Source of the DNA: Bordetella petrii
Lineage (GTDB): Bacteria; Pseudomonadota; Gammaproteobacteria; Burkholderiales; Burkholderiaceae_B
Direction of reading: 5' to 3'
Assembly: GCF_017356245.1 (NCBI RefSeq)
Contig: NZ_JAFMZZ010000001.1
Coordinates: 3,253,293 to 3,317,292, forward strand
DNA: 64,000 nt
Part shown: piece after piece, positions 12,158 through 64,000 of the stretch
Position numbering within the stretch: position 1 is the stretch's first letter
Layout: each line of letters opens with the position of its first letter
Made by a program: the position numbers and the translations under genes
The notes under the pieces: generated by a model
Databases searched by the model: none
The model's input: the letters and a program-made list of their open reading frames with translations, nothing else
What the model was told of the DNA's origin: nothing

Positions 12158-12516
12158 GAGGGGGGGCGGGAAGGGGTGGGCGGTGTGAAGTAGGGGGGAT
12201 TATTGCAGATTTGTGACGGGGGCTTCTTTGAGGGGAGTGGTCTTTTTCTGGCCTTTGGAGTCCATTCTTGCCCCGTCCCGCGGCGGCCGGACGGGCGGTG
12301 GCCGGCGCACGTGCGTCGGGCTCGGGCGCATGCAGGCGCCCTCGGCCCGCTGCGCGGGCTGCCCCGCCGCCCAACGCGCCGGCCACCGCCCGCCCGGCCG
12401 CCGCGGGACTGCGACAGGGTGGATTCGGACTTTCCGCAAGCAGATCCCGTATGGAGACAGGCCCCCCGCCATCCCATAATGCGATAGCATCAAATTTTCC
12501 TTTGCCGGTTACCGCC
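12158..12516. other. 359-base intergenic region between divergent pit and mog-type gene
   Basis: The region must hold promoters for both divergent genes. The pit side is G-rich on the plus strand (C-rich in the pit leader). The middle, 12265-12414, is one copy of the structured 150-bp element. The right 100 bases are more AT-rich (CATAATGCGATAGC near 12476-12489 may hold a -10 for the plus gene). No further gene is apparent. Confidence 0.6.
12265..12414 (+). repeat. Structured 150-bp element, copy 1
   Basis: A 32-bp inverted repeat (12277-12308 with 12376-12407, one mismatch) encloses a core with two further hairpins: GGGCGC/GCGCCC (12324-12329, 12336-12341) and GCCCGC/GCGGGC (12345-12350, 12354-12359). 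Ends read TTCTTGCCCCGTCCCGCGG and CCGCGGGACTGCGA. The core is nearly identical to copies at 34538-34686 (minus) and 63903 onward, while the middle of the outer arms differs yet remains complementary. It has no coding potential. It could be a structured RNA, a cruciform-forming DNA site or a non-autonomous mobile element. Confidence 0.85.
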
Positions 12517-34366: not shown

Positions 34367-34749
34367 GGAATGGGCTCCTGGCGTGTGCGGGATGGATAAG
34401 CCTAACCCATGCCGCCGTCGGTCTTTTCGTTTGCGTTCTCGGGGCGCCGGGCGCTATGGCCGGGTGTCTGGCACCTGGCAATATCCGTCTGCATTTTTGA
34501 GTCCCCAGGCTATGGCCGGTGGCTCGAATTTATACACTCGCAGTCCCGCGGCGTTCGGGCAGGCGGGGGCGGCGCGTTTGGCCGGCGGGGCAGCCCGCGC
34601 AGCGGGCCGAGGGCGCCTGGATGCGCCCGAGCCCGACGGACGTGCGCCGCCCCCGCCTGCCCGAACGCCGCGGGACGGGGCAAGAACTCAAGCCACCCAC
34701 CAGCGCCATTTGCAGTAACCTATGCGCATTTTTCCGATTAGGCCGATTC
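34367..34749. other. 383-base repeat-bearing gap before purC
   Basis: Holds a remnant of the REP-like family (GGTGTCTGGCACCTGG at 34463-34478), a complete inverted copy of the structured 150-bp element (34538-34686), and 63 AT-richer bases just before the purC GTG that should contain its promoter (TATGCGCATTTTTCCGATTA region). No gene is supported. Confidence 0.65.
34538..34686 (-). repeat. Structured 150-bp element, copy 2
   Basis: Reverse orientation to copy 1. The outer arms (34545-34575 and 34644-34674) are perfectly complementary over 31 bases, although their middle section differs strongly from copy 1. The ends and the core, including both inner hairpins, match copy 1 with only a few changes. 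This pattern of changed but paired arms is evidence for selection on, or templated renewal of, the stem. Confidence 0.85.
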
Positions 34750-35631
34750 GTGACTTCCGCCCTGCACCAATCCAGCATCAAGTCCCTGCCGCTACTGGGT
34801 CGCGGCAAAGTGCGCGACATGTACGCCGTGGGCGACGACAAGCTCTTGATCGTCGCTTCCGACCGCATTTCCGCATTCGACGTGATTCTCGACGACCCCA
34901 TCCCCGGCAAGGGCCAGGTGCTGACCGAGCTGACCGAATTCTGGCTTGGCAAGCTGGCGCACATTCTGCCCAACCATTCCACCGGCGTGCGGCCCGAAGA
35001 CGTGGTGGCGCCCGATGAACTGGACCAGGTGCGCGGCCGCGCCGTGGTGGTCAAGCGCCTGAAGCCGGTGCTGGTCGAGGCCGTGGCGCGCGGCTACCTG
35101 ATTGGCTCGGGCTGGAAAGACTACCAGGCCACCGGCGCGGTGTGCGGCATCCAGCTGCCGGCCGGCCTGCAGCAGGCCAGCAAGCTGCCCCAGCCCATTT
35201 TCACGCCGGCGGCCAAGGCCGAATTCGGCATGCACGACGAAAACGTCGACTTCGCCCACGTGGTCAACGAAGTCGGCCAGGACATGGCCGAGCGCATCCG
35301 CGACGTCACCCTGCGCCTGTACACCGAGGCGGCCCAGTTCGCGGCCACCAAGGGCATCATCATTGCCGACACCAAGTTCGAATTCGGCCTGGACGACGAC
35401 GGCACGCTGCACCTGATGGACGAGGTGCTGACCCCCGATTCGTCGCGCTTCTGGCCGGCCGACGGCTATCGCGTGGGCATCAGCCCCCCGTCGTTCGACA
35501 AGCAGTTCGTGCGCGACTGGCTGGAAACCCAGACCTGGGACAAGACCCCGCCGGCCCCGCGCCTACCGCAGGAAGTGCTGGAGAAAACCGCGGCCAAGTA
35601 CCGCGAGGCGCTCGACCGCCTGGTAGCCTGA
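34750..35631 (+). CDS. purC: SAICAR synthetase
   Basis: A 293-residue phosphoribosylaminoimidazole-succinocarboxamide synthase of purine synthesis. [14 protein letters not shown] binds [23 protein letters not shown] and IADTKFEFG are family blocks. The GTG at 34750 begins the conserved N terminus; no ATG fits. It is the long, eukaryote-like form common in betaproteobacteria. Confidence 0.95.
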
Positions 35632-63902: not shown

Positions 63903-64000
63903 TTCTAGCCCCGTCCCGCGTCGTCCGGCCGGGCGGTGTCGGCGCACGTGCGTCGGGCTCGGGCGCATGCGGGCGCCCTCGGCCTGCTGCGCAGGCTGCC
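63903..64000 (+). repeat. Structured 150-bp element, copy 3, cut by window end
   Basis: Same orientation as copy 1 and beginning 61 bases after boxR. The left outer arm (63915-63945) has its own variable middle. Both inner hairpins are present: GGGCGC/GCGCCC (63961-63966, 63973-63978) and GCCTGC/GCAGGC (63982-63987, 63991-63996), the latter with a paired C-G to T-A change relative to copies 1 and 2. The right outer arm lies beyond base 64000. Confidence 0.82.

Follow-up and report, generated by a model that had tools for sequence, protein, structure and literature searches.

A dispersed intergenic element of Bordetella with a freely varying, paired outer stem and a constraint on one folded strand

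The 64,000-nucleotide stretch of Bordetella petrii DNA analyzed here (the window) holds three copies of an element, all of which belong to a dispersed intergenic family. Comparison of the family members showed that the outer stem, of roughly 26–36 bp, appears to tolerate almost any sequence provided that its two arms pair. We lean toward the explanation that these elements act as folded RNA, probably at the ends of mRNAs. The comparison brings out pairing, covariation, strand-specific tolerance of mismatches, co-direction with tandem genes, an A/C-rich tail and a facing arrangement of the 5′ ends of two element types, all of which this explanation would accommodate.

Two of the three window copies are complete. 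Copy 1 lies between divergent genes, which from their translations we take to be a phosphate-permease-like gene and a moaB/mogA-like gene. Copy 2 is followed by a gene at 34750–35631 that, judging from its translation, is presumably purC-like. The features are as follows, and the strand is that of the constrained molecule, referred to below as the RNA strand:

12265..12414, minus strand: copy 1, type A, from own-genome BLAST and folding
12376..12409, minus strand: copy 1, 5′ arm of the outer stem in RNA order
12309..12375, minus strand: copy 1, conserved core with an internal loop, a second stem and a branched region of two hairpins and two CGAG motifs
12275..12308, minus strand: copy 1, 3′ arm of the outer stem, with one G·U to the 5′ arm
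12200..12274, minus strand: copy 1, CAAGAA motif and A/C-rich tail, outer limit approximate
34538..34686, plus strand: copy 2, type A, directed toward the purC-like gene
34543..34575, plus strand: copy 2, 5′ arm
34576..34643, plus strand: copy 2, conserved core
34644..34676, plus strand: copy 2, 3′ arm, 33/33 paired
34677..34740, plus strand: copy 2, GGGGCAAGAACTC motif and tail, outer limit approximate
63903..64000, minus strand: copy 3, type A by its end sequence, with the 5′ arm and part of the core unassembled

The preliminary description of this DNA had noted that copies 1 and 2 differ in the middle of their arms while sharing a nearly identical core, and this holds on re-alignment. Their arms are also complementary, as had been claimed: the outer stem of copy 1 spans 34 bp (12275–12308 with 12376–12409) with a single mismatch, which on the minus strand is a G·U pair, and that of copy 2 spans 33 bp (34543–34575 with 34644–34676) with none. 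Copy 3 had been called truncated; this need not be so, since an assembly N sits directly beyond it, just past the window end, and leaves the remainder unassembled. An N or a contig end also lies inside other own-genome copies (L011, L012, L015, L016, L018 and L028), and short-read assemblies may undercount these elements where gaps and contig ends fall inside copies.

BLAST against the same genome placed the element at 19 sites at E ~1e-19 or better, some of them cut by contig ends or Ns, and a chance origin is excluded by this number of places. A covariance model built from 12 own-genome copies matched nine of nine same-genus genomes with 7 to 48 matches each, counts that include single places matched on both strands. 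The core was matched exactly in nine named contigs, all from Bordetella (B. petrii strains, sp. BOR01 and genomosp. 7). A family-level search found the element in 14 of the 200 genomes, which belong to 4 of the 43 genera, and a weak BLAST match (2e-6) lies in another family of the same order (G045). For the comparisons below, 143 places were picked by hand among the matches listed, with opposite-strand rows of the same place and most partial rows left out; 120 regions were fetched, one listed place was not taken in, and 156 copies were compared. A second set consisted of 38 copies from three other genera. Two short derivatives (match coordinates G000:C4:94702-94783, and L025) seemingly lack the core and keep both outer arms. 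Carriage by plasmids or phages was rejected, as blastn at E 1e-5 returned zero matches against 72,556 records of plasmids and 50,697 of phages. Rfam 15 gave no match across the window, and at six loci searched at E up to 1 the element matched miRNA families well below their gathering scores; with no Rfam score above the gathering threshold, identity with a known RNA was rejected as well.

In the 24-bp variable stem, an arm matched the partner arm of its own copy at 0.966 and the arms of other copies at 0.412, a comparison that somewhat favors own arms in that these were placed by local alignment and cross-copy arms position by position. It covers 133 of the 156 copies, 23 having been left out for gaps, N or short arms. 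Within single genomes, the cross-copy match was 0.43 to 0.71, and only 6 of the 133 copies paired better with the arm of another copy. Counting copies whose arms differ and still pair had been proposed beforehand as a check, and the count came out on the side of pairing (96.6% for the own arm versus 41% for others). The innermost 30 columns of the 156-copy comparison are Watson-Crick in 96.5% of 4617 cells, and G·U pairs occupy 86 of the 4617 stem cells; this share of ~2% is low for a structured RNA. Read in the RNA orientation, the 5′ arm is G/U-rich across copies and the 3′ arm is A/C-rich. The paired cells of the 5′ arm hold G 1509 times, C 956 times, U 408 times and A 209 times.

Covariation was examined in an alignment of 118 rows from 100 loci that was fitted to the model structure, whereas the 24-bp arm comparison was not so fitted. 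Changes on both sides were found at 49 of the 54 pairs, with 1376 two-sided cells observed versus 308 after shuffling. Standard pairs make up 96.9% of 6261 cells versus 70.1% with the 3′ letters shuffled, a level that none of 500 shuffles reached, and they fall to 41–44% when the partners are slid by 1–3 columns. For five covariation measures, the observed value was reached by 0 to 6 of 500 shuffles. All six copies that were folded gave RNA-strand z-scores between −7.9 and −14.1. The preliminary description had named two outcomes that would speak against its own claim, namely mostly unpaired arms in other copies and arm differences at the level expected without structure; with two-sided changes at 49/54 pairs and an own-arm match of 0.966, neither occurred.

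The mismatches that remain in the variable stem are lopsided. With copy 1 as first oriented, there are 65 A·C versus 17 G·U and 13 U·C or C·U versus 2 G·A or A·G. On the opposite strand, which we call the RNA strand, the former become 65 G·U versus 17 A·C over 133 copies (nominal p 9e-8; unmerged p values here treat related copies as independent, and merged recounts were made for mismatches and gene context). Folded RNA tolerates G·U and G·A best. After alike arms were merged at 85, 75 and 65%, the RNA-strand ratio of G·U to A·C in the main set was 59:17, 48:17 and 32:17, and the G·A excess dropped from 13:2 to 9:2. In the second set, mismatches were counted in 36 of the 38 copies and arms were compared in 31; there were 34 G·U versus 5 A·C on the RNA strand, and 30:5, 30:5 and 20:5 after merging at the same thresholds. 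One of the 17 C/T mismatches in this set is conserved and sits at the inner end, and the G·A class was therefore not used there. Duplex DNA, a cruciform and simple recopying of arms all predict equal numbers of G·U and A·C; the excess seen therefore indicates that one folded strand is constrained. Base composition is not its cause, because transitions in paired arms produce G·U and A·C equally. The G·U excess could be mimicked by C-to-T mutation that is biased to one strand, but the tail on that same strand is T-poor. That the constrained molecule is single-stranded, minus at copy 1 and plus at copy 2, is thus well supported by the mismatch pattern.

The whole element is about 150 bp long and contains a conserved core of ~65–80 nt. 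Along the RNA strand, a leader with a NGCNAGTCC-like end is followed by the 5′ arm, an internal loop (often GUUG) and the second stem, and then by two hairpins separated and trailed by CGAG, the 3′ arm, a CAAGAACTC-like motif and an A/C-rich tail of ~50 nt. Over 143 copies, the A+C content is 0.70 in the tail versus 0.55 in the leader (nominal p 8e-23), with C at 0.41 and G at 0.18 in the tail versus 0.33 and 0.27 in the leader. The tail is therefore the kind of C-rich, G-poor stretch looked for in Rho-dependent terminators, which is a loose criterion. The U-tract of an intrinsic terminator is absent, with T at 0.11 in the first 10 bases past the element in the same 143 copies. Short tandem repeats are present in the tails of L094 and L148, and the repeat in L094 takes in the arm end.

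Type A stems open with G-U and type B stems with G-C, and the 156 copies comprise 89 A, 57 B and 10 untyped. At 20 of the 22 loci with two matches, the copies lie on opposite strands with their 5′ ends facing across 83–289 bp, and at two they run in the same direction; all 18 facing pairs that could be typed in both copies combine an A with a B. Candidate partners turned up in a profile search at another 15 loci; each of them has the facing 5′ ends, and some are weak (E up to 0.009). Three of these partners (L163, L185 and L195) belong to a longer relation, type C, which has seven long matches in G002 and single, shorter matches in G008, G006, G007, G004 and G000, as well as in G064 and G074 from two other genera. 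In G008, G006, G007 and G004, type C adjoins the start of a gene that, from its sequence, we take to be lpd-like. The conserved core of type C (L163:1225-1480, L218–L231) is large, and by eye this type has a variable, paired outer stem of its own, up to ~38 bp long. In addition, a tandem pair of glycine riboswitch aptamers is located at L171:495-747 on the minus strand, ~250 bp from an element pair.

The orientation of the elements tends to follow that of tandem genes around them. Neighboring genes were taken from the caller that gets the window genes around copies 1 and 2 right. Among solo copies between tandem genes, the RNA strand runs with the genes in 36 of 49 cases and against them in 13 (p 0.0014), and counting one per orthologous group gives 29 versus 10 with 2 mixed (p 0.003). 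Fifteen loci counted as solo have a candidate partner or remnant (E up to 0.009), and leaving out loci with a partner keeps the result by group (25 versus 8, 2 mixed). Type B alone, at 11 versus 4 in the tandem context, is not significant (p 0.12). Convergent contexts outnumber divergent ones 37:20 overall, 28:7 for type A and 32:13 by orthologous group. The accepted caller gave 74 of 107 for the 5′-side gene, but this measure mixes context with orientation and we therefore rely on the tandem counts. For that 5′-side gene, a codon-model caller with a random background found no bias (50 of 101), which counts against the co-direction; it had miscalled window genes and was set aside, as was a cruder caller. 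Divergent genes flank 20 of the 106 solo copies with both neighbors called, including both complete window copies, and a role at 3′ ends fits badly at these 20 because of this position.

The facing 5′ ends, at 20 of the 22 two-match loci and at the 15 loci with candidate partners, could also reflect an independent small RNA gene, or a divergent pair of A and B genes served by a putative common promoter region between them, as opposed to a segment of host mRNAs. Common motifs such as GGTTCGAATTCA in the leaders of G000 would be in keeping with this. Since it overlaps with the mRNA-end explanation on selection for RNA, the two are not exclusive. We nevertheless consider it doubtful, if possible, as the RNA strand is co-directed with neighboring genes and the hairpin is followed by no U-tract terminator.

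A mismatch bias like that of RNA would also result from strand-specific single-stranded DNA. An element that is cut out or copied in the form of its folded strand by an enzyme that needs the hairpin, like IS200/IS605, REPINs and attC, would be constrained on one strand only, and the fixed A/B geometry resembles the two ends of one unit. The dispersed and partly recent copies would fit as well: three A/B units in G002 (L171, L175 and L177) are 93–94% alike at different places. In recent G000 copies, ~95 bp are common on both sides (leader side aligned in 3 of 5 and tail side in 4 of 5, by eye). From these units and copies we conclude that the family moves. By eye, GGTGTCWGACACC-like palindromes are found close to recent G000 units (flanks L005, L009 and L014); these palindromes may correspond to the repeat named Bor-1 in PMC2267715. 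However, the Y1 transposase (PF01797) was found in six of the nine genomes and not in G000, G002 and G007, of which G000 and G002 are copy-rich; spread of the REPIN type driven by a RAYT was rejected on this ground, and the Y1 transposase is unlikely to be the cause of spread. Orientation relative to the replication fork in G003, at 17 to 26 of 43 with the terminus assumed opposite dnaA, shows no significant bias, the constrained strand follows gene direction, and paired changes have taken place in the arms at orthologous sites, where another copy may however have replaced the original one. We favor RNA over single-stranded DNA for the co-direction with genes and the non-significant fork bias, and regard a mobile element of this kind as unlikely.

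Several species often carry the element at orthologous places, recognized by the likeness of both flanks, with arms that have changed and still pair. The purC-like locus of G000 and of G003, with flanks 88% and 94% alike, holds copies in the same orientation with paired but largely different arms, and in G004 it holds a type B copy that points the other way; at the copy 1 locus, the copy in G003 is oppositely oriented. The copies L003 and L107 are one arm base apart. Strongly differing arms at orthologous sites could stem from replacement by another copy. Between copies one to two arm differences apart, eight changes are one-sided and none two-sided, in a small, non-independent sample of six pairs; at three to four differences, there are 9 two-sided paired versus 13 one-sided changes, so that two-sided changes accumulate with divergence and dominate in the more diverged copies. 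This one-sided-first pattern fits stepwise compensation under selection, in which the arms would change mostly via G·U intermediates while selection keeps them paired. The use of variable arms as guides or donors was rejected. In the own genome, 24-nt arm patterns with up to three mismatches found four places for copy 2 (two own arms, one other family copy and one three-mismatch site; control 0) and six for copy 1 (two own arms and four three-mismatch sites; control 3).

The preliminary description had left a choice between a selected structure and the periodic recopying of one arm from the other. Of the two, the selected structure is well supported and has been narrowed to one strand. Recopying, in which intrastrand template switching would rewrite one arm from the other with no function needed, is in keeping with the very few mismatches and the scarcity of G·U, but it is not needed because the six least-diverged pairs changed on one side only (8 versus 0, small and non-independent), two-sided changes accrue with divergence (9 beside 13 at three to four differences) and the G·U excess is unlike strand-blind correction. 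Mismatches lean to G·U on one strand in both sets, and the C-to-T mimic is countered by the T-poor tail; we regard recopying as improbable. A site in double-stranded DNA that binds a protein or extrudes as a cruciform would present a long, near-perfect inverted repeat in intergenic DNA, as seen here, but it can hardly be the cause when the stem sequence is not conserved and G·T and A·C, which are equivalent in duplex or cruciform DNA, stand at 65:17 and 34:5.

The elements can be compared with several known systems. NEMIS, ERIC and other miniature insertion-like repeats are short intergenic palindromes able to fold in transcripts, and the terminal repeats of NEMIS and ERIC are conserved in sequence; our element is likewise a short intergenic foldable repeat and differs in that its stem sequence is free. 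The base of the attC stem carries RYYYAAC and GTTRRRY boxes, which by eye are absent at the stem base of the element, whose ends resemble NGCNAGTCC and CAAGAACTC. Integron attC sites, as presented in the accessible part of PMC2727003, keep their structure while the sequence varies and are used on one strand. NEMIS and ERIC are both named in the accessible parts of PMC2267715 and PMC3110155. REPINs and REP sequences associated with RAYTs are dispersed extragenic hairpins in inverted doublets with compensatory hairpin changes, and in the available account (PMC3116915) the ends of REPINs are conserved and their spacer is less so, whereas our element has a conserved core on a variable outer stem. 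REPINs are two inverted copies of one short conserved REP in one hairpin; the ends of our element are not inverted copies of each other. BRE of the Betaproteobacteria, found at the sRNA gene bprJ, is 75–91 bp long and tandem at some loci according to the available text (PMC3110155). Like BRE, ours is a dispersed Bordetella repeat, and at least one copy of BRE is transcribed according to that text; compared by description, ours is ~150 bp long and occurs in divergent A/B pairs.

A further counterpart by description is the Bor-2 stem-loop family of B. bronchiseptica, listed in 2008, which the accessible text of PMC2267715 gives as intergenic, 167 bp long, with 17 members (six full) and an RNAz-predicted structure. 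Our element is also intergenic, structured and ~150 bp, so that size and copy number fit, and it may be the same as Bor-2. That part of PMC2267715 gives no per-copy covariation, strand, pair geometry or wider distribution. The accessible parts of two further papers describe Bor repeats of 26–30 bp (PMC1590033) and compensatory evolution of terminators (PMC5381666). In titles and the starts of abstracts of the open-licence literature searched, we found no variable-stem element in Bordetella, and in partial texts of that literature we found no report for Bordetella of a variable paired stem, the strand asymmetry or A/B pairs. The suggestion that this might be an undescribed system is thus borne out only in part: it has no Rfam match, and intergenic structured repeats are a known kind, with Bor-2 in the accessible text of PMC2267715 maybe the same. 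We do not claim the first discovery of the repeat, which has relatives in kind among REPINs, NEMIS/ERIC and the Bordetella Bor and BRE repeats.

If the elements act as folded RNA at mRNA ends, they would be transcribed mostly inside the transcripts of neighboring genes. The stem would block 3′–5′ exonucleases, and the C-rich, G-poor tail is a putative Rho loading site. The core may bind a protein or an RNA, tuning the function at the 3′ end or letting the element spread. We infer this role in termination and end protection from the stem, the C-rich tail and the position, and it may be wrong. A broader proposal, which we put forward only as a speculation with rather low odds, is that the A/B pairs and type C form one superfamily of RNA-based mobile or regulatory units, in which two structured RNAs point outward from a common middle, branched cores bind a partner and stems are freely paired, spreading in Alcaligenaceae without a transposase of their own.

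With nearly 200 natural copies of one fold (156 + 38), many of them with largely different stems, the family is an unusually clean case in which to measure compensatory evolution. The asymmetry between G·U and A·C on the two strands provides a simple test that tells selection on RNA or single-stranded DNA from causes in duplex DNA. If the role at 3′ ends is true, a dispersed element for which Rfam has no model would supply transcript ends across a bacterial genus.
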